Shown here: positions 50,547 to 60,203 of the stretch, piece by piece
Numbering within the stretch: the stretch's first letter is position 1
How the letters are laid out: each line of letters opens with the position of its first letter
From: Thermaerobacter marianensis DSM 12885
GTDB taxonomy: Bacteria > Bacillota > Sulfobacillia > Thermaerobacterales > Thermaerobacteraceae
DNA: 64,000 nt
NCBI RefSeq assembly: GCF_000184705.1
Contig: NC_014831.1
Span: 2,666,001 to 2,730,000 of the forward strand
Reading direction: 5' to 3'
Translations under genes and position numbers: made by a program
Notes under the pieces: model-generated
The model's database searches: none
The model's input: the letters and a program-made list of their open reading frames with translations, nothing else
What the model was told of the DNA's origin: nothing

Positions 50547-50745
50547 CCGGCGCTGCCACCGGCACCGCGGCACCCGAACCGGGTGCGATGAACGCCGGAG
50601 ACGGCCCCGGCCGCCCGGACCGGTGGCGACGAGCCCAGGGGGCCGCACCGGCTGCCCCAACGGTCGGCTACGAAGCCAGGGGGCGGCACCGGCCCGGCCG
50701 AACGCCGGGTTCGGGGCCGCCCCTTCTGGGTTCTTCCGTTGCCTT

Positions 50746-50775
50746 TTGACGCTGGGAACGGCAACCGCCTATAAT
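50746..50775 (+). promoter_or_regulatory. predicted promoter of the Fur-family gene
   Basis: TTGACG (50746-50751) and TATAAT (50770-50775), 18 bp apart. An AT-rich imperfect palindrome, AATAACAGTTGTATT, follows at 50779-50793, before the start codon, a likely spot for autoregulation. Confidence 0.65.
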
Positions 50776-50799
50776 GTCAATAACAGTTGTATTTTTAGA

Positions 50800-51402
50800 A
50801 TGGCTATCGAATCGGTGGCCGAGCCGGGGGTGGCGTTGCCCCCGCCGACGCATGGGGTGAGCCCGGTGACCATCCGCAGGATCCTGGAAACCCTGGCCCA
50901 GCACCGGTACCGGCTGACCTGGCAGCGCTGGGCCGTGGCAGCGGCCGTGGTGGTCAACCAGGACCGGCTGCTGACGGCGGAAGAGCTGTATTCGCAGCTC
51001 AAGAAGGACTACCCCGACATCGGCCTGGCCACGGTCTACCGGACCCTGGACCTTCTGGTGGAACTCGGGCTGGTGGACCGCGTCCAGGTGGGCGAGGGCC
51101 CGACCAAGTACGGCCTGCGCAACGCCGACGTGGAGATCCGCCAGCAGCTGGTGTGCGAGTGCTGCGGGGAAGTGGCACCCCTGGACGACCGGCAGCTGGA
51201 GTCCCTGTGCAAGCACCTGTCCCACGTCAGCGGCTACCAGATCTCCGAGATCGAGGTGAGGGTCACCGGCATCTGCCCGCGCTGCCGGGCGGCCGCGCGG
51301 GGCGAGGGCCAGGCTGTCGGGAGGCCGGCCGCTGGGACGGCCCGGCCCGCGGCTGCGGCTGCGGACGAACCGGCCGCTACGCCGGCCCGGCAGGCCCGGT
51401 GA
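50800..51402 (+). CDS. Fur-family metal- or peroxide-responsive regulator
   Basis: 200 residues. The winged-helix DNA-binding domain includes RLTWQRWAVAAAVV and the classical IGLATVYRTLDLLVELGLV; the dimerisation domain carries CECCGE and CPRC, the two Cys pairs of the structural zinc site. Whether it senses iron, zinc, manganese or peroxide is not evident. The ATG at 50800 lacks a Shine-Dalgarno site and lies about 18 nt after the likely transcription start; GTGs at 50857 and 50866 are alternatives. The last 40 residues are an Ala/Gly/Arg-rich tail. Confidence 0.88.
   Translation: MAIESVAEPGVALPPPTHGVSPVTIRRILETLAQHRYRLTWQRWAVAAAVVVNQDRLLTAEELYSQLKKDYPDIGLATVYRTLDLLVELGLVDRVQVGEGPTKYGLRNADVEIRQQLVCECCGEVAPLDDRQLESLCKHLSHVSGYQISEIEVRVTGICPRCRAAARGEGQAVGRPAAGTARPAAAAADEPAATPARQAR
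51363..51373 (+). repeat. dispersed motif GGACGAACCGG, copy 11
   Basis: Exact core in the tail of the Fur-family gene, encoding ADEPAA with GAA for Glu, followed by CC. Confidence 0.6.
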
Positions 51403-51613: not shown

Positions 51614-52549
51614 TTACGACGCCGATGCCAGGCGCGGGATCTCCTCCACGGGGAACTCCAGCTCGATCAGCTCGCCGCCGCGGAGGACGGTCAGGCGCGC
51701 CCGCTCCCCCGGCCGGCGGTACGCCAGGACCTTGCGGATGCTGCCGGCGTGCACCACGGGCTGGTCGTCGGCGCGCACCACCATGTCGAAGGGCTTGATC
51801 CCGGCCCGCTTGCCGGGTCCGTTGTCGGCCACGTGCCCGACCACCAGGCCGCGGTCCACCGGCAGGGCAAAGAGCTGGGCCAGGGCCGGGTCGACGACCT
51901 CGGGCTGGCCGGAGAAACCCAGCCACGGATGGGTGGCGCGGCCGAACTCGATGATCTGGTTGACGACGCGCCGCACCACGTCGCCCTGCACCGCCAGATT
52001 CATCCCGTGGGACCAGGGGATGCCGTTGATCCCGGCCACCGTCCCGTCCAGCATGACCAGCGGGCCGCCGGTGTTCCCGGGGTGCATGGGCGCCTGGGTG
52101 ACGATGAGGCCGTCCACCGGGATGCGGTCGGGCCGGTACAGGGTCATGTCCACGGTGCTGATGATGCCGAAGGTGGCGTTGATCTGCAGGTTCAGGGGAT
52201 ACCCGACGGCCACCACGAACTGGCCCACCTGCAGCTCGGCCGTCGGGCGCCAGACAGGCAGGGGCCCGGGGAAGCGCTCGGCCAGCCGCAACACGGCGAT
52301 GAAGTACACGGGGTCGCTCCCCACCACCGAGGCGTCCACCTTGGCCCCGCCAGGCAGGGTCACCACCACCTCGGCAGCGTCATCCACCGTCTGGGCGTTG
52401 CAGATGACGTGCCAGTGGTCGAAGACCACGCCCGTCCCGAAGGCCGTACTCTGCCGCTTGCGGTCGGTCCCCGCCACGTGGACCAGGAAAGGCCGCACCC
52501 GCTCCAGGACATCGACAATGGCCGTTTCCCATCCGAAAGGTTGGAGCAT
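51614..52549 (-). CDS. HtrA/DegP-like pseudoprotease with PDZ domain
   Basis: 311 residues with the two-barrel trypsin-like fold of HtrA followed by a PDZ domain (about residues 207-300, HPWLGFSG ... ADNGPGKRAGIKPFDMVV). All three catalytic positions are changed: the His of NAH is Gln53 (CNAQTV), the Asp before LAVL is Phe83 (SDPVYFIAVL), and the Ser of GNSGGP is Thr160 (HPGNTGGP). The fold landmarks around them (FGTGVVFD, VGYPLNL, STVDM) are kept, so it is likely a folded binding protein without peptidase activity. No signal peptide or membrane anchor is seen, unlike most HtrA proteins. Confidence 0.85.
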   Translation of the reverse strand: MLQPFGWETAIVDVLERVRPFLVHVAGTDRKRQSTAFGTGVVFDHWHVICNAQTVDDAAEVVVTLPGGAKVDASVVGSDPVYFIAVLRLAERFPGPLPVWRPTAELQVGQFVVAVGYPLNLQINATFGIISTVDMTLYRPDRIPVDGLIVTQAPMHPGNTGGPLVMLDGTVAGINGIPWSHGMNLAVQGDVVRRVVNQIIEFGRATHPWLGFSGQPEVVDPALAQLFALPVDRGLVVGHVADNGPGKRAGIKPFDMVVRADDQPVVHAGSIRKVLAYRRPGERARLTVLRGGELIELEFPVEEIPRLASAS

Positions 52550-52844: not shown

Positions 52845-52919
52845 TGCGCCCGGCAGGAATCGAACCTGCGCAAGACGTGGCTCCGGAGGCCACCGCTCTA
52901 TCCGCTGAGCTACGGGCGC
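52845..52919 (-). tRNA. tRNA-Arg(CCG)
   Basis: Acceptor GCGCCCG/CGGGCGC, anticodon arm GTGGC-CTCCGGA-GCCAC with anticodon CCG, T-loop TTCGATT. CCA not encoded. Stands alone with its own promoter. Confidence 0.97.
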
Positions 52920-53225: not shown

Positions 53226-53738
53226 ATGGGGGGGACGAACGCGGCCCGGCGGCCCGGGACCGTCCGGCAACTCTTCGCCGACGGGGACCCCGGCCCGGGC
53301 CAGCACCGCCGCCAGGACAGCACGCGCGGTGACGGGCAGGACAACGCCCGAAACGCCCGGGATAGTCACGGTGACGGCTCCGGCCACCACCACGGCCACG
53401 GTCATGCCCATGCCCGTGACGACCCGTTGCTGCGCCGGTACGGTCACCCTCGCTTCCACAGCTGGATCAGCCGGCGGCCCGCCACCTGGTGGGAAAAGGT
53501 CAAGCAGTTCATCTGGGGCTTTCTGTTCTTCGAGTGGTACCACGAGCTGCAGCACACCCGCTCCCGCTACAACGACATCATGAACCTGGTTCTCTTCGGC
53601 GAGCTGTTGGGGCTCCCGCTGATGAACTCGTCCATCGGGTTGCGACTGCTGCCGTACGTCCTGCCTGACCTCGACGCGTGGAAGCACCGGCAGCTGGAGG
53701 AGCACGTGGTCGAAGAACACGCGCCGCACATCCATTGA
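53226..53738 (+). CDS. unknown small protein with a His-rich stretch (paralogue of the 57921 gene product)
   Basis: 170 residues from the ATG at 53226 (GAGG 4 bases upstream; an ATG at 53208 is possible). The N-terminal half is hydrophilic and has HHHGHGHAHA at about residues 53-62, likely metal-binding. The C-terminal half is conserved-looking: WEKVKQFIWGFLFFEWYHE, then GELLGLPLMN, LRLLPYVLP and AWKHRQLEEH, ending EEHAPHIH. The block LG-x-P ... LR-x-LPY-x-x-P ... WK-x-R is shared with the 100-residue protein at 57921-58223. One or two membrane-interacting helices are likely. Family unknown to me. Confidence 0.7.
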   Translation: MGGTNAARRPGTVRQLFADGDPGPGQHRRQDSTRGDGQDNARNARDSHGDGSGHHHGHGHAHARDDPLLRRYGHPRFHSWISRRPATWWEKVKQFIWGFLFFEWYHELQHTRSRYNDIMNLVLFGELLGLPLMNSSIGLRLLPYVLPDLDAWKHRQLEEHVVEEHAPHIH

Positions 53739-53750
53739 GGTGACGGGACG

Positions 53751-54299
53751 GTGGACGATGCCCTGCTCGATCGAATCACCCTGGCCGTGGCCGTCCTCCT
53801 TGTGCTCTGGCTGATCGGGGGCCGCCAGTGGAACCGCCGACGCGCCGTCGAGCTGGCACGGGCCGCCCGCGATGCCCTGCGCTTGCTGGGGGACGAAATT
53901 AACATGCAGTCCCTGGGCGGCGGGACCGGCGGCTTCCTCATGGAGGTGGGGCGCCCCGGGCCGGGCATACGGTCGGCCCAGCTCCTGTGCCTGCTGGAAC
54001 CCCGCGACTTTCCCCTCGCCTGGGCATGGACCCGCTGGCGCGGCCGGCGCGACCAGTTCATCCTGAAGATCGAGGCGACCCAACCGCTGCGCACCGCGCG
54101 GCTTCAGGGGTACGGACGGCCGGCCGCGGGCTTTGGCTTGCGCCGGCTCGTGCTGGCTGCCACCCAGCCGTCCAGCCCGCAGGTACAGGTCAGCTTCGGC
54201 GTGGCGCCGGGCGAGGAGAGCGACATCGCCCGGGCCGTGGCCCTGGCGGCGGGCCTGGCCCGTGGGGAGCTGCAACTGGCGGCGCGCGACTCGGCCTGA
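53751..54299 (+). CDS. unknown protein with N-terminal membrane helix
   Basis: 182 residues from a GTG 12 bp after the preceding gene (GAGG about 10 bases upstream), so the two form an operon. Residues about 9-24 (ITLAVAVLLVLWLIGG) form a membrane anchor, followed by basic residues and a soluble domain containing DEINMQSLGGGTGGFLMEV and DQFILKIEATQPLRTARLQGYG. The type of fold is not recognised. Codon use is like real genes here. Confidence 0.65.
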   Translation: MDDALLDRITLAVAVLLVLWLIGGRQWNRRRAVELARAARDALRLLGDEINMQSLGGGTGGFLMEVGRPGPGIRSAQLLCLLEPRDFPLAWAWTRWRGRRDQFILKIEATQPLRTARLQGYGRPAAGFGLRRLVLAATQPSSPQVQVSFGVAPGEESDIARAVALAAGLARGELQLAARDSA

Positions 54300-54392
54300 G
54301 GGACACTGCCCGTCGCCGCGACATGCGACACCCCACGGCCTGCCTGCCCAGGCGCCCGGGCCGGCGCCCCGGGCACGTGCAAGGTGCAGGCC

Positions 54393-54416
54393 GGTGCAAC
54401 GTGCATGGTGCAACGT
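54393..54416. repeat. short direct repeats between convergent genes
   Basis: GGTGCAACGT occurs at 54393-54402 and 54407-54416 (14-bp period), with a degenerate third copy GGTGCAGG from 54383. It lies between the stops of two convergent unknown genes. Confidence 0.6.
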
Positions 54417-54428
54417 ACGGGACGAGCG

Positions 54429-54941
54429 CTAGCTCTGTGGCGGCCGGCCGGCGAGGCCGTCCCCGCCCGGCCGCCGTGGCTCGCCCCCGGCCAGGCAGCC
54501 CTCGATCAGGCGGTCCACGGCTTCATAGTCCTCCTCGAACCGCGCGCAGCGTCCTCCCACGACGACGGCCAACTCGCCGGTGCGGATGCGGTGGCGGGTG
54601 GCCAGCCACGTACCCCGCAACGACGTAAGGGGGACCGTCACAGGGTCCACCTGGGATCCGAAGCGGGCGGCCAGGTGCCGGACCAGTGCCTCCAGCCGGC
54701 GCTGCCCGCGGCGCTCCGCTTCGGGGTACTCCCGTTCCTGTTCCGCCGGCCCCTCCAGGCCGCAGGCGTAGCCCCACGGCATCCCCCGCGGGCACATCTT
54801 GTAGTAGAGGGGGAACAGGCCGACGATCTCCACCCTCAGGGGCCGCGGTGGTTGCTCCTGTGCGAGGCGGAAGCGCCACCGGGCGAACAAGCTCGGGGAG
54901 CGCTCCGCAGCCCGCGGCTCATTCACCCCCGTCCGGTCCAT
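54429..54941 (-). CDS. unknown protein, last gene of the CstA-ArsA cluster
   Basis: 170 residues, ATG with GGAGG 10 bases upstream, 14 bp after the preceding gene. The middle is well-formed: LRVEIVGLFPLYYKMCPRGMP with a second Cys in GYACGLEG 12 residues on, then RLEALVRHLAARFGSQVDPVTVPL and RTGELAVVVGGRCARFEEDYEAVDRLIEGCL. The alpha/beta pattern and Cys pair recall small redox or metal-binding domains, but no catalytic motif is certain. Probably cytoplasmic. Confidence 0.65.
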   Translation of the reverse strand: MDRTGVNEPRAAERSPSLFARWRFRLAQEQPPRPLRVEIVGLFPLYYKMCPRGMPWGYACGLEGPAEQEREYPEAERRGQRRLEALVRHLAARFGSQVDPVTVPLTSLRGTWLATRHRIRTGELAVVVGGRCARFEEDYEAVDRLIEGCLAGGEPRRPGGDGLAGRPPQS

Positions 54942-54955
54942 CGCCCCTGCCCCTC

Positions 54956-55669
54956 CTAGTGGCAGCGCCAGTCGTGCAACAAGGCCTGCCAGGCGAGTTC
55001 TAGCTCGGCTTCGCCGCTCCCCGCCGCGGTCTCCAGGCGGATCCGGATGCGGCGCGCCGTCTCAGGACAGTCCAGCACCAGCACCCGCGCAGGCCGCCAC
55101 TTCCCGGGGAAGCCCCGCCGCACCTCCCCCCGGGCCCACCATCCCCGATGACCGGCCACGGCCAGCACACCTTGGGCGGCTACGCGCCCCAGGGTGCCAG
55201 CGGATGCTGGTGGCAGGGCCCGCGGCCCATTCCGGCCGGGATGGGGCGCCGGCCCGGCGGCCGGGGTCAGGTCCAGAAAGAGTTCCACCCGCACCGTGGC
55301 CGGGCGGCAGCGCCCGGCGTGCCCCTGGCGGGCCGGGACGCCACCGGCGGTTTGCTCGGCGTCTCCCGCGCTGGCGGCACGGCCGTTCCGGGCGCGACCC
55401 GGACCGCCCGCCGCCTCCGGCTCGGACGGTACCGCATCGGACCCGGCCGTCAGCCACCAGTGGCCGCGCCCGGCCGTGGCCCAGCTGACGCCGTCCCGCA
55501 CCTGCCAGCGGTCGACCTCCGGGGGAAAGGCGCCGGTGCCCAGGCGCCACCCCGCCGGGACGCCCAGCAGCACCAGGTTGCAGGTGCCGAAGACAAGGCT
55601 GCGCACGGCCAGGACATGGGGCCGGGTCGCCGGTGGCCCGGCCCCCGCCCCGCCCGCCACCGCCCTCAC
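54956..55669 (-). CDS. unknown protein coupled to the second ArsA-type ATPase
   Basis: 237 residues. The GTG start overlaps the stop of the ATPase gene upstream by 4 bp, so the two are translationally coupled. Two structured parts, about 20-75 (VRSLVFGTCNLVLLGVPAGWRLG, WQVRDGVSWATAGRGHWWLTAG) and 150-237 (VLAVAGHRGWWARGEVRRGFPG, ARVLVLDCPETARRIRIRLETAAG), flank a Gly/Ala-rich low-complexity insert. No recognised domain. Confidence 0.6.
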   Translation of the reverse strand: MRAVAGGAGAGPPATRPHVLAVRSLVFGTCNLVLLGVPAGWRLGTGAFPPEVDRWQVRDGVSWATAGRGHWWLTAGSDAVPSEPEAAGGPGRARNGRAASAGDAEQTAGGVPARQGHAGRCRPATVRVELFLDLTPAAGPAPHPGRNGPRALPPASAGTLGRVAAQGVLAVAGHRGWWARGEVRRGFPGKWRPARVLVLDCPETARRIRIRLETAAGSGEAELELAWQALLHDWRCH

Positions 55670-56697
55670 CCCGTCACCTGGGCCAGGGCCCAGTGCTGGT
55701 CGGGGTCGAAGAGGTCGTCCACCGCCTGCTTCAGGGCCTCCAGGCCGTGGACCTCGCTCTTGTACAGGGGCAGGAAGGCCCGTACCAGGTCGCCCAACTC
55801 GCGCCGGATCTGCTCCAGGTAGCCCGCCTGCTCCTGGTACTTGTTGCGCAGGTACTCGTCCTCGCTCGCCTTCTCCACTTCCTCGCCGCGGATCACCCCG
55901 TTGACCAGCACCCCACCCACGGGGATGTCATAGGCGCGCACCATCTTGATGAACCGCGTGACCACGGAGATGGGCAGCGCCAGCGGCAGGGTGACGAAGA
56001 AGAACGCCGTCAAGTTGGGGTCGACCAGCAGCTTCTTGACCGCCTTGAAGCGCTCGTCCATGGCGATCAGGTCGGCCAGCATGGGGTCCTTCTTGACTTC
56101 TTCCATGACCTTCTCCTTGCGGAAGCTGAGCTGCACCCGCAGCGACAGGGCCTCCTTGCGCGATTCGATCATGCGCTGCAACCACAGGCCGTAGATCTTG
56201 GACAGACCGATGAGCCGCACGGCGTTGGCCACGGCCGCCGTGTCGAAGACCACGATCTCGTACTCCTGGCCTTCGCGCAGCATGATGTCGACCATCTTGT
56301 CGAACATGGCGGACTCCTCGAAGGCCGGGTTCGTCACGGCGATCTCGATGAACGGCTTGGCATCCACCGGGATGTCGGCGTACTTCAGGAACTCGCGCAC
56401 CCGCTGGCCGATGTTCTCGCGGTAGCGCGCCACCACGTCGGATGCGTCGACCTCCACGGCGTGGAGGTTGGGCACCCCCTGGACCGGCCGCACCTGCCCG
56501 CCCGACAGGTCCTGTCCGAAGACCGACGTCAGCGAGTGCACGGGGTTCAGGCTGGCCAGCATCGTGCGCTTGCCCTGCTCGGCGAAGTGGTAAGCCAGCA
56601 CGGCGGCGCAGATGGTCTTGCCCACGCCGCCCTTGCCGCCGGTGAAGACGAACTTCAACTCCGGATGCTCTTCCAGGAAGGCCGTGATGTGCTGCAC
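55666..56697 (-). CDS. ArsA/Get3-type ATPase with Asn at the catalytic Asp position
   Basis: 343 residues from the GTG at 56697 with AAAGGAG 8 bases upstream. Deviant Walker A GGKGGVGKT at residues 20-28; the ATPase-site segment that reads STDP in ArsA and Get3 is here SLNP (Asn51). Further motifs are IVVFDTAAVANAVRLI and VLVNGVIRG. Single ATPase domain, the size of Get3 rather than double-domain ArsA. The Asp-to-Asn change matches the well-known hydrolysis-dead Get3 D57N mutant, so activity may be low or depend on its partner. Second of two adjacent ATPases. Confidence 0.82.
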   Translation of the reverse strand: MQHITAFLEEHPELKFVFTGGKGGVGKTICAAVLAYHFAEQGKRTMLASLNPVHSLTSVFGQDLSGGQVRPVQGVPNLHAVEVDASDVVARYRENIGQRVREFLKYADIPVDAKPFIEIAVTNPAFEESAMFDKMVDIMLREGQEYEIVVFDTAAVANAVRLIGLSKIYGLWLQRMIESRKEALSLRVQLSFRKEKVMEEVKKDPMLADLIAMDERFKAVKKLLVDPNLTAFFFVTLPLALPISVVTRFIKMVRAYDIPVGGVLVNGVIRGEEVEKASEDEYLRNKYQEQAGYLEQIRRELGDLVRAFLPLYKSEVHGLEALKQAVDDLFDPDQHWALAQVTG

Positions 56698-56841
56698 CTT
56701 CGTCACTCCTTTGCGGAGGAACCGGCCGCGGCGCGCCGGCCAGGCCTCGCGGCCGGGGCGGCCGGGCACCGGGCCCCGCAGCCCGGCCGTTCGGGACGCC
56801 GGGAGCAGGCGGGGCCGCGCTGGGCCGGCTCGCCCAGGGCG

Positions 56842-57858
56842 TCACGCCTCCAGGGCCATCTCGCAGTTCATCAGATAGCGGGAGGCCTGCTCGATCATCT
56901 CCAGGCCTTTGGGCTCGCGGGTGAACATCGGCACCACGGACTGCACCCGGTCCCCGAACTTGCGGGCGATCTCCGCCAGGTGCTCCTGCTGCATCAGGAC
57001 CCGGTTGCGCAGGTACTCGGAGGTCCCCGGCCGGTCCAGCAGCTCGCGGGGGTACACCTGGTTGACCACCAGGCCCGACATCTCCATGCCGAGGGCGTGG
57101 AACATCGCCAGGGCCCGCTCGGTGTCGAGAATGGCCATCTTCTCGGGGATCAGCACCATGAAGAAGGCCGTACGGCGCCGGTCGGTGATGAGGTCGGTGA
57201 AGGCCTTGATCTTGTTGCGGATGTCGATGAGTTCCTGCATCACGGCGTCCTCGTGGCCCTTCTCGCCCTTGAGGGTGGCGGCGATGGCATCGTATTCGGC
57301 CACCTTGGAGCGGGCCTCGGTGATCTTCTCCACCCACTTGGAGAGGATGTCGGCCATGGCCACCATGCGCACGCCGTGGCCGAAGGGCGGCATGTCGAAG
57401 ATGTAGATGTCGTACTCGTGGGCTGCAACCAGCTCGGCCATGGCGTCGTAGGTGGCCGACTCGTACATGGCGGGCTCCGCCGAGGTGGAGTCGATGTACT
57501 CCTCGATCTCCCGAGGCACCGCGTCGAGGCCGTACATGTCCTTGATCTTCTGCTTCACCGAGGCCTGGTACTCGGCCACCCGGCGGTCGGCGTCGATCTC
57601 CACCACGAACAGGTTGGGCGCCACCTCGATCTCGCCCAGGCCGTAGAAGTTGCGCTCGAAGATGTCGCTGAGCGACGCCTGGGGATCGGTGCTGAAGAGC
57701 AGGGTCCGCTTCTTCTTCACCTGCGACATGTACCAGGCCAGGGACGAGCTGGACGTGGTCTTGCCCAGGCCGCCCTTGCCGGCGAAGATGACGATCTCCA
57801 CGTCGGGGTGCTCGTTGAAGTACGCCTCCAGACCCCGGGGCCGTACCAGGGTGGGCAT
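56842..57858 (-). CDS. ArsA/Get3-type ATPase with intact active site
   Basis: 338 residues from the ATG at 57858 with GGGAGG 9 bases upstream. Deviant Walker A GKGGLGKTT at residues 27-35 and FSTDPQASLSDIF with Asp58 retained; IYIFDMPPFGHGVRM and LVVNQVYPREL follow. It is similar in layout to the next gene product but clearly diverged, suggesting they work as a pair. No arsenic genes (arsB, arsR, arsD) are nearby, so arsenite export is unlikely; targeting or maturing a membrane protein is a guess from the Get3 resemblance. Confidence 0.85.
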   Translation of the reverse strand: MPTLVRPRGLEAYFNEHPDVEIVIFAGKGGLGKTTSSSSLAWYMSQVKKKRTLLFSTDPQASLSDIFERNFYGLGEIEVAPNLFVVEIDADRRVAEYQASVKQKIKDMYGLDAVPREIEEYIDSTSAEPAMYESATYDAMAELVAAHEYDIYIFDMPPFGHGVRMVAMADILSKWVEKITEARSKVAEYDAIAATLKGEKGHEDAVMQELIDIRNKIKAFTDLITDRRRTAFFMVLIPEKMAILDTERALAMFHALGMEMSGLVVNQVYPRELLDRPGTSEYLRNRVLMQQEHLAEIARKFGDRVQSVVPMFTREPKGLEMIEQASRYLMNCEMALEA

Positions 57859-57920
57859 GCCGTCATTCCTCCCCTTTCGGCATCCTCCGGTTCGACCGTT
57901 GAAGGGTGGCGCCGGCCACG

Positions 57921-58223
57921 TCAGTAGATGGCGTCGGTGAAGTCCCGCTCCCGGAAGACCCGCTGCTTCCACGACTCGATGTTGGGCACCGCGTACGGCA
58001 GGATCCGCAGGCTGTAGTACGGCGGCAGCACGGGGATGCCCAGCATGTCGCCCAGGGTGATGAACATGAACAGGTGCTCCAGGTGCATCCGCGTGCGCAG
58101 GGCCGCCGTCACGTTACCGTGGCTGGCCATGCCGTACAGGACACCGCGCAACTTGGTGAGGAACCCGGCCTTCTGCTCCTTGCCGTTGCCGTTGGCGGCC
58201 GGTTCGTCCTTCCGCCCGAACAT
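57921..58223 (-). CDS. unknown small protein between CstA and the ArsA-type ATPases
   Basis: 100 residues; ATG with GGAGG 9 bases upstream. After a hydrophilic start (FGRKDEPAANGNGKEQK) comes FLTKLRGVLYGMASHG, then a hydrophobic part MFITLGDMLGIPVLPPYYSLRILPYAVP and WKQRVFRERDFTDAIY. The LG-x-P, LR-x-LPY, WK-x-R pattern is shared with the C-terminal half of the protein at 53226-53738. It is possibly peripheral or tail-anchored in the membrane. The first ATPase begins 62 bp downstream. Confidence 0.72.
   Translation of the reverse strand: MFGRKDEPAANGNGKEQKAGFLTKLRGVLYGMASHGNVTAALRTRMHLEHLFMFITLGDMLGIPVLPPYYSLRILPYAVPNIESWKQRVFRERDFTDAIY
58199..58209 (-). repeat. dispersed motif GGACGAACCGG, copy 12
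   Basis: Exact core in the first codons of the small gene at 57921-58223, sense orientation, encoding KDEPAA with GAA for Glu. Confidence 0.6.
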
Positions 58224-58430
58224 CGTCCGCTGCCTCCTTTGCCGGGGCCGGCCGCACGGGCGGGCGCTGCCGGTGGCGGCGGCGCCCGCCCGCGGCCGCC
58301 GCGTTCGTCCCAAGGCACCGCCGGCGGGGCTACGGCCCAGGCCGCGACCATGGCCCGCCGCCACGCCCTTGAACGGGGCGGAGCCATGGTCCGGCCGCGG
58401 CCTTCCCGAGCCGGTGCGGGTCCCAGGGCT

Positions 58431-60203
58431 TCAGTCGCCCGGTGCCGCCTGGGGCTGGGCCATCAGGCCCGCCTTGGCCCGGGCGTACGCCTGCAGGGTC
58501 AGCACCGCCATGCGCAGGCCGAGGGCGAACAGCGCCAGGCCGATGAGCACCGACGCCCAGTCGAGGATGTTGGCCAGGGCCGGCGCCATCGTCTTGATGG
58601 GATCTTGGGTCAGCGTCTTGGCAGGCCCGCCGAGGGCGGCCTGCAGGAACCGCACCGTCTGGACGGCGATGGCCGCCAGGGTGGTGACGATCATGAACAG
58701 CGCCGGGATCAGCGTGTACCGCGTCGGCGCCTTGACCCGCGCCAGGTGGATGGTGACGAGCATCAGCGCCAGGCCCGCCAGCAGCTGGTTCGACCCGCCG
58801 AAGAACAGCCAGATGTTGTTCCACGAGCCGCTGACGGCCATGATCCACGGCAGCAGCAGGCCGATGAAGGTGGAGACGTGCTTCTGGGCCAGGATGCTCT
58901 CGCCGAAGACCTCCACCGACACCAGCCGCCAGAACCGGGTGACCAGGGCCTGGACGGTGATGGCGTAGATCACCAGCACCGTGCCGAAGAAGACCCGGAT
59001 CGCCACGTCGGACATGAAGAGCCCGAGGATCGGCTGGGTCATCAGCGTGGCGCCGAAGACCCACGAGCCCACGCTGGCCCCCTTGAGCTCGGCGATGCGC
59101 TCGGGGCTCAGCACCATGTAGGAGGCCAGGGAGACCAGGGCCAGCAGGCCCTCGCCCAGCATGGCGCCGGCGCCGACGGGATGGGCGTCGGGCTCGATGT
59201 CCAGCTGCTTCGCCGTGCTGGACGAGCTCACCAGGCTATGCCACCCCGAGATGGCACCGCAGGCGATGGCCGTGAAGAGCACGGGCCACATAGGGTTGCC
59301 GCCGGCGGCGAAGCTGCCTGCCGGACCCCAGAACCCCACGTACCCCGGTTGCGCCAGGGTGACACCGGTGACGGGCGTGATCAGCGCCCCTACCAGGATC
59401 ACCAGCACGGCGAACATGGCGGGGAAGAAGGACACGTAGTTGAAGGGCTGGATGAACGTCGGCAGGGGCAGGATCGACGCCACGTAGAGGATGGCGCAGC
59501 ACAGCGCCGCCCACACCCAGACGTTGAAGTTCAGGGCACCCTGGGTGGCCAGGTTGAACTTCACCGCGCGGCCGATCTCCGTGGACCCCAGCCAGAAGGA
59601 CAGGATCATCAGGACGAAGGCGATGAGGGTCACGGCCCCCACGTTCATCCGCCGCTTGTACAGCAGCTGGCCGCAGATCACGCCGGTGAGGATGATGCCG
59701 GCCGTGGCCACGAAGGACCCTTCGAAGGTGTTCCAGAAGACGGCGATCAGCTGGATGAAGGTCGCCGAGATGATCAGCAGGTAGAACAGGATGAAGCCCA
59801 GCAGGGTGCTGCGCCCCGCGGCGCCGGTGAACTCGTAGGTGATGGGACCGAAGGACCGCCCCTGGTTGCGCACCGACAGCATGATGGACCCGTAGTCCTG
59901 GAGCCAACCGATGAAGAAGTTGCCGAAGATGATCCACAGCAACGCCGGAATCCAGCCGAACTGCAGGGCGACGAAGGGCCCCAGGATCGGCCCGAGAGCA
60001 GCCACGCTCTTGTACTGGTAGCCCCAGAGGACGTAGCGGCTGACGGGGAAGTACTCCACCCCGTCCGTGTACATGTGGGCCGGCGTTGTGCGGTTCGCGT
60101 CGGGACGCCAGACGGTGCGGTCGTACCAGCGCCCGTACACGAAGTAGGCGATGCCGTAGGCGATCAGCGCCAGCACCACGAACATCGCCGGCGTGTTGAA
60201 CAT
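58431..60203 (-). CDS. cstA: CstA-family carbon-starvation transporter
   Basis: 590-residue membrane protein with roughly 15 hydrophobic segments. The N-terminal part (YGRWYDRTVW, TPAHMYTDGVEYFPV, WGYQYKSVAALGPILGP) and GAISGWHSLVSSSSTAKQL are hallmarks of CstA; these proteins import peptides or pyruvate. It is shorter than the 700-residue E. coli CstA, in the range of shorter family members. The ATG at 60203 has AAAGGGGA upstream. It lies 207 bp before the small protein and ATPase genes, in the same direction; no two-component system (as in btsSR) is nearby. Confidence 0.92.
   Translation of the reverse strand: MFNTPAMFVVLALIAYGIAYFVYGRWYDRTVWRPDANRTTPAHMYTDGVEYFPVSRYVLWGYQYKSVAALGPILGPFVALQFGWIPALLWIIFGNFFIGWLQDYGSIMLSVRNQGRSFGPITYEFTGAAGRSTLLGFILFYLLIISATFIQLIAVFWNTFEGSFVATAGIILTGVICGQLLYKRRMNVGAVTLIAFVLMILSFWLGSTEIGRAVKFNLATQGALNFNVWVWAALCCAILYVASILPLPTFIQPFNYVSFFPAMFAVLVILVGALITPVTGVTLAQPGYVGFWGPAGSFAAGGNPMWPVLFTAIACGAISGWHSLVSSSSTAKQLDIEPDAHPVGAGAMLGEGLLALVSLASYMVLSPERIAELKGASVGSWVFGATLMTQPILGLFMSDVAIRVFFGTVLVIYAITVQALVTRFWRLVSVEVFGESILAQKHVSTFIGLLLPWIMAVSGSWNNIWLFFGGSNQLLAGLALMLVTIHLARVKAPTRYTLIPALFMIVTTLAAIAVQTVRFLQAALGGPAKTLTQDPIKTMAPALANILDWASVLIGLALFALGLRMAVLTLQAYARAKAGLMAQPQAAPGD

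Follow-up and report, generated by a model that had tools for sequence, protein, structure and literature searches.

A conserved CstA-linked gene module of bacteria and archaea with two ArsA/Get3-type ATPases, one of them probably hydrolysis-impaired

The genome of Thermaerobacter marianensis DSM 12885 (assembly GCF_000184705.1) is a single contig of 2.84 Mb, and a stretch of 64,000 nucleotides of it (NC_014831.1, positions 2,666,001 to 2,730,000 of the forward strand; hereafter the window, whose numbering is used throughout) contains, at 53226 to 60203, a cluster of eight genes for the transporter CstA, two small CstX proteins, two different single-domain ArsA/Get3-type ATPases (ArsA1 and ArsA2) and three further proteins, here called P237, P170 and P182. 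Here, we describe this cluster as a real conserved system that recurs from Bacillota to archaea; its core has been known since 2010, and what is new is a class of loci with paired ATPases, one of them altered at its catalytic site, along with additional protein components. The genes are as follows.

58428 to 60203 (with stop), minus strand: CstA, carbon-starvation family transporter of 590 residues (PF02554)
57921 to 58223, minus strand: CstX1, small hydrophobic protein of 100 residues, cory-CC-star/CstX family (NF041419)
56842 to 57858, minus strand: ArsA1, single-domain ArsA/Get3 ATPase with intact catalytic Asp (STDPQAS; TIGR00345)
55666 to 56706, minus strand: ArsA2, ArsA1 paralogue in which Asn replaces the catalytic Asp (SLNPVHS) and Ala the switch-II Gly (TIGR00345)
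54956 to 55669, minus strand: P237, predicted PsbP/Mog1-fold protein of 237 residues (conserved columns, orthologue model)
54429 to 54941, minus strand: P170, protein of 170 residues that looks thioredoxin-like (structure model, fold search)
53751 to 54299, plus strand: P182, CstY-like protein of 182 residues with an N-terminal membrane segment (hydropathy, family in paired and single loci)
53226 to 53738, plus strand: CstX2, second CstX paralogue, 170 residues, with a His-rich N-terminus and a C-terminal HIH (NF041419, paralogue tree)

The P237 open reading frame (ORF) and arsA2 overlap by 4 bp, the P170 ORF starts 14 bp downstream of P237, and a gap of 12 bp separates CstX2 from P182, both of which lie on the plus strand, convergent with the minus-strand cstA and arsA genes. 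A preliminary description of the locus, made from the sequence alone, had given this gene set with the same coordinates, the convergent two-gene operon and the 4-bp junction, all of which are present. At another locus (L034), CstX2 and P182 are encoded in the same direction as cstA and just upstream of it, and the convergent pair of T. marianensis is therefore part of the same module. The CstA protein (PF02554, 325 bits, 1.1e-96) is the sole CstA of the genome and an ordinary family member, with 27% identity to Escherichia coli CstA over 570 residues; besides ArsA1 and ArsA2, the 2.84-Mb genome encodes no other full-length ArsA/Get3 ATPase.

Much of this arrangement has a precedent in the work of Castillo and Saier (2010, PMC2963123), who reported that cstA frequently shares a cluster with a small cstX and a single-domain arsA homologue of about 330 residues, found cstY in such clusters of five archaea, and described the operons CstA-CstX-ArsA and CstA-CstX-CstY-ArsA. 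The same paper places adjacent ArsA pairs of Pyrobaculum arsenaticum and Symbiobacterium thermophilum in cluster 15 of ArsA clusters 14-18, records two CstX paralogues in Pyrobaculum and in Thermococcus kodakarensis, and mentions that single-domain proteins may carry SXN in place of the SXD motif, a variation that the available part of the text does not tie to one member of a pair. The T. marianensis locus shares with these operons CstA, a small CstX, a single-domain ArsA of about 330 residues, an adjacent ArsA pair, a CstY-like protein and the absence of ars genes, and thus belongs to the CstA-CstX-ArsA class; one of the loci analyzed here (L032) comes from a metagenome-assembled genome of S. 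thermophilum itself. The joint arrangement with CstA is thus not new, and the earlier suggestion that it had not been described was wrong for the core of the module. A literature search found no follow-up to the 2010 paper, and the ATPase asymmetry and the additional protein parts appear to be unreported so far.

To assess the distribution of the module, one collection was scanned and over 600 genomes were searched, and the loci retrieved were then examined with profiles; because of contig ends the resulting counts are lower bounds, and related genomes are not independent. Two classes of loci were distinguished: a single class with CstA, one CstX, one ArsA and often P182, and a paired class with CstA, CstX1, CstX2, ArsA1, ArsA2, P237, P182 and sometimes P170. 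The paired class was found in 51 genomes of Bacillota, one small bacterial phylum and several archaeal groups, including many heat-loving archaea, a recurrence of the same genes that is far beyond chance. CstA is present at the locus in 48 of these 51 genomes, the order ArsA1 then ArsA2, both on one strand, holds in 50 of 51 loci, and of the 50 loci with a CstX gene, 49 have one immediately upstream of ArsA1. Two CstX copies occur in 48/51 paired genomes, and one in 26/26 single-class genomes, a count that leaves out the fragmentary locus L177, which carries paired-class genes; two of the three paired exceptions are drafts with contig ends inside the cassette. In a sample of one archaeal phylum, 14 of 29 genomes were positive, all with exactly two CstX copies. 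P237 (42/51) and P170 (21/51) are confined to the paired class, with no occurrence of either in the 26 single-class genomes. P182 was not found in some loci, six of which, all archaeal, hold another N-terminally anchored ORF that may be a diverged copy of it. The proposal of a conserved system was thus borne out, as the genes are co-localized from Bacillota to archaea and not scattered in related genomes. No further conserved neighbour that would hint at a substrate is widely common to bacteria and archaea beyond the eight families, the extra neighbour clusters being either small and limited to closely related genomes or, in a few cases, spurious or due to chance.

Several loci depart from the common pattern. 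Four Bacillota genomes (L042-L045) carry CstX-ArsA pairs without cstA within the surrounding 12-19 kb, which suggests that the CstX-ArsA unit is separable from CstA, contrary to a statement of the 2010 paper; in one of them (L045), an ArsR-like ORF adjoins ArsA. The cassettes of three archaeal loci (L166, L175 and L177) have two P170 copies. Two loci have genes that seem to be broken into several open frames, by sequencing error or decay: ArsA1 in L172, and both cstA and the single ArsA in L184.

Both ATPases of T. marianensis belong to the GET3/ArsA subfamily by profile comparison, with scores for ArsA1 and ArsA2, respectively, of 226 and 190 bits for PF02374 and of 224 and 199 bits for TIGR00345 (cut-off 135). 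They share with GET3/TRC40 the P-loop GKGGVGKT with its signature Lys and a helical subdomain of similar length (67-71 residues, compared with 70-72 in archaeal Get3), and differ in that two distinct genes are present, one with a natural change of the D57N type, that the CxxC motif is lacking, and that the proteins are bacterial as well as archaeal and linked to CstA. Where Get3 has its catalytic Asp (D57 in yeast), all 51 ArsA2 sequences have Asn, which alignments to relatives in the PDB place over that Asp, and all 51 have Ala for the switch-II Gly; the switch-I Asp is kept in 51/51 ArsA1 and 24/24 single ArsA sequences, and neither the P-loop Lys nor the signature Lys is lost from any ArsA1, ArsA2 or single ArsA protein. 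Since Get3 with the D57N change binds ATP and does not hydrolyse it (PMC12506534), ArsA2 is, by strong analogy, probably an ATP-binding, hydrolysis-impaired partner. In the phylogenetic tree, ArsA1 sequences fall on one side of a branch with support 99, ArsA2 sequences likewise with support 100, and the two groups together with support 92. In the simplest history, the ATPase and CstX were each duplicated once when the paired class arose, and the class came to be present in both bacteria and archaea afterwards.

Two known ATPase families were considered and rejected as homes for the pair. Arsenical-pump ArsA belongs to the same ATPase superfamily and likewise has two ATPase units, which in the pump are fused and here are encoded by separate genes; the single-domain ArsA1 and ArsA2 score 95 and 102 bits against TIGR04291 (cut-off 650), conserved Cys residues are absent from ArsA2 and single ArsA proteins, and ArsA1 has one half-conserved Cys. 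Neither ArsB nor any member of the SBF family (the superfamily that includes Acr3) was found in the 2.84-Mb genome, in agreement with the absence of arsenic genes noted in the preliminary description, and, with the ArsA cysteines lacking as well, a role in arsenic resistance was rejected. The mycobacterial BagA/BagB proteins (Rv3679/Rv3680) are also two adjacent single-domain ArsA-like ATPases, a parallel that had been called loose and proved to be so: both ATPases score 27-43 bits against the models NF053622 and NF053621, far below the cut-offs of 400 and 521, which rules out membership. We know of no link of BagA/BagB to CstA.

The two CstX proteins, previously proposed to be relatives, are paralogues, as both match the NF041419 'cory-CC-star' model; with 31 bits each against a cut-off of 80, they belong by sequence to a family related to NF041419 and outside its equivalog. 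In a tree built from few columns, CstX1 sequences lie on one side of a branch (support 95) and single-class CstX sequences stand apart (93). The last residue of CstX2 is a His in at least 13 archaeal copies (L163-L175 among the loci) and in those examined Bacillota copies whose C-terminus is complete; CstX1 copies have no terminal Cys or His, and the His-rich N-terminal tract of Thermaerobacter CstX2 is absent from archaeal copies. Searches of CstX profiles against solved structures by sequence gave nothing significant. Pyruvate uptake by E. coli CstA depends on a small protein, YbdD (PMC5847655), and YbdD/YjiX (Sel_put, PF04328) was found in none of the 77 CstX-carrying genomes examined; for this reason, CstX probably takes the role of YbdD as the small partner of CstA. 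Some single-class Bacillota CstX proteins and E. coli YbdD end in CC (P237 ends in CH). This common ending raised the question of CstX-YbdD homology, which was rejected after profile comparison with hhalign gave a probability of 0.4%.

The model of a P237 orthologue (predicted local distance difference test, pLDDT, 93) matches the folds of PsbP (VIA Z 10.3), Mog1 (9.6), SciW with its bound transmembrane domain (8.9) and EagT6 (8.8). EagT6 and SciW are Eag chaperones of type VI secretion, a group against which P237 gives Z scores of 8.2-8.9 over 109-118 aligned residues and which holds the transmembrane domains of secreted effectors (PMC7773334). P237 and the Eag chaperones thus share a PsbP/Mog1-type fold, from which point they differ: the Eag Pfam domain DUF1795 was matched by none of 10 P237 members, the secretion context is missing, and P237 has an invariant His/Cys set. 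Among 43 sequences, one His (42/43), one Cys (42/42), one Arg (42/42) and a C-terminal Cys-His (42/42 and 41/41) are conserved; judging from strand numbering, the His and the first Cys would face each other on one hairpin. P170 looks thioredoxin-like in its model (pLDDT 75), with the thioredoxin order beta-alpha-beta-alpha-beta-beta-alpha and a Cys after the first strand in 20/25 sequences; in the fold search, Foldseek gave a best E-value of 0.011 (probability 0.97), with almost all rows thioredoxin-like and ArsD not listed among them, and the VIA Z scores of 7-8.7 are close to the background level. By sequence, the P237 and P170 profiles gave nothing significant against solved structures.

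P182 is CstY-like by its position, its size and its membrane segment (hydropathy 2.3 in residues 4-22); loci of both classes have relatives of it, among them archaeal ones similar to those for which CstY was described. In a Pfam scan, 17 of 34 members of the CstY family matched PF07946 (CCDC47, a component of the PAT complex), mostly collinearly and with a best E-value of 3.9e-7. One archaeal member exceeded the gathering score (30.0 against 27.7 bits) with most of its length aligned, the others scored 10-22, and two single-class members gave weak, collinear matches. An independent six-frame scan of 398 archaeal genomes for PF07946 yielded eight matches whose start falls within profile positions 5-8. 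Each of these lies in a paired-class genome or next to a CstX of the paired type, and seven are at the CstA/CstX locus. A paired genome without CstY at the locus also showed a CCDC47-like match (G437:C1:517842-518129), at a distance of about 40 kb from its CstX-ArsA genes. Reversed CstY sequences gave no match to PF07946, nor did P182 of T. marianensis itself; when the membrane segment was removed the match was lost, and the soluble part alone gave none. Against PDB sequences, the P182-family profiles gave nothing significant, a CCDC47 chain appearing once (E 0.21) with a profile of eight rows and disappearing with larger profiles. CCDC47 and the CstY family have in common a membrane segment followed by a globular cytosolic domain, and the latter is without the coiled coil.

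From the gene set and order, the co-duplication, the residue loss and the predicted folds, we infer a set of interactions and a direction of action, which we put forward tentatively as the favoured mechanism and to which we give somewhat less than even chances: an asymmetric Get3-type heterodimer would deliver the CstX pair to, or assemble it with, CstA. ArsA1 and ArsA2 would form a heterodimer with one hydrolysing and one ATP-locked site, which would bind the hydrophobic segments of CstX1 and CstX2 passed on by P237 and dock at the membrane via CstY. The CstX pair would then be inserted or assembled with CstA, which would need a small partner for transport, as E. coli CstA needs YbdD, and ATP hydrolysis in ArsA1 would release the client. 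In favour of this mechanism we count the conserved cassette shared by Bacillota and archaea, the order CstX1-ArsA1-ArsA2, the Asp-to-Asn change, the well-supported branches of ArsA1, ArsA2 and CstX1 in the trees, the doubling of CstX, the Eag-type fold of P237, the absence of YbdD, the Get3-like helical subdomain and the weak CstY-CCDC47 similarity. The Get3-type nature of the ATPases, as earlier proposed, stands by TIGR00345, and their link to hydrophobic clients is plausible.

Several observations weigh against this mechanism. The CxxC zinc motif, which in GET3 lies at the dimer interface, is found in none of the 126 ATPases. The hydrophobic segment of CstX is weak, with a mean hydropathy of 1.45-1.6 over 19 residues, and, at about 31-34 residues, the tail is longer than a tail anchor would lead one to expect; because the hydropathy is borderline, CstX can be regarded only provisionally as a strict tail-anchored client of Get3. 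By sequence, the small soluble proteins matched none of the chaperone families, and PsbP and Mog1 score slightly above the Eag chaperones in the fold match of P237. The PsbP/Mog1 fold serves proteins of many functions, and chaperone action of P237 is for that reason only a lead. As regards the co-duplication, one paired genome that is 96% complete (G141) truly has a single CstX, and T. kodakarensis reportedly has two CstX (PMC2963123) and, by the available part of the table in that paper, one ArsA.

The main rival to delivery of the CstX pair by the heterodimer is the proposal of Castillo and Saier (PMC2963123) that ArsA energizes CstA, CstX coupling ATP hydrolysis by ArsA1/ArsA2 to transport and thereby converting a proton-driven carrier into an ATP-driven pump. 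This proposal has a direct precedent in ArsA-ArsB, and it agrees with the presence of CstA at 48 of the 51 paired loci, with the almost constant company of CstX and an ArsA-type ATPase in the examined loci and with the normal family membership of the T. marianensis CstA. It leaves the PsbP/Mog1-fold and CstY proteins unexplained, however, and the cysteines that couple ArsA to its substrate are absent, no ATPase is known to act with E. coli CstA, which works together with YbdD, and the four Bacillota genomes mentioned above have CstX-ArsA without cstA in the surrounding 12-19 kb; we hold ATP-driving of CstA to be rather unlikely.

The conserved His and Cys residues led us to consider metal handling as well, in which CstX2, P237 and P170 would bind a metal and the ATPases would drive its transfer, with the metal being loaded into CstA or metal complexes being moved. 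The invariant His, Cys, Arg and C-terminal Cys-His of P237, the terminal His of CstX2 in complete Bacillota copies and at least 13 archaeal ones, the His-rich tract of Thermaerobacter CstX2 and the P170 Cys (20/25) would fit such a role. The module contains no member of a metal transporter or metal chaperone family, however, the His-rich N-terminus is missing from archaeal CstX2, and CstX1 lacks a terminal Cys or His; we consider metal handling improbable. We regard as still more improbable a regulatory role, in which the ATPase pair and the small proteins would sense carbon starvation or the membrane state and gate CstA, with neither client insertion nor driving of transport: a pseudo-ATPase partner is often a sensor or switch, and the gene content is constant though no starvation regulator is linked to it, but none of the parts has a signalling domain and nothing speaks specifically for regulation.

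An extension of the favoured mechanism, which we consider unlikely on present evidence, would make CstY a prokaryotic homologue of CCDC47 and the module a membrane-protein biogenesis machine for CstX and the multipass CstA, consisting of the asymmetric Get3-type heterodimer, P237 as a chaperone of transmembrane domains and a PAT-type membrane component. If true, it would contradict the statement that prokaryotes lack PAT components (PMC9630114), and the eukaryotic PAT machinery would possibly have a prokaryotic root.

Outside the module, genes for a DegS/HtrA-like protease (51614-52549) and a Fur/PerR-family regulator (50623-51402) adjoin it in all four genomes of the genus Thermaerobacter and were not found beside the module elsewhere; a tRNA-like sequence lies between the protease gene and CstX2 (52848-52918, minus strand).

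A Get3-type pair with one permanently altered site, retained across bacteria and archaea, offers a natural experiment on the division of work between two nucleotide sites, involving the same change that has been made on purpose in the laboratory to trap ATP-bound Get3. The module ties ATPases and small membrane proteins to a widespread transporter, such that the 2010 proposal of an ATP-driven CstA becomes testable against a role in biogenesis, and, if the similarity to CCDC47 holds, it would bear on the origin of part of the eukaryotic membrane-protein machinery.

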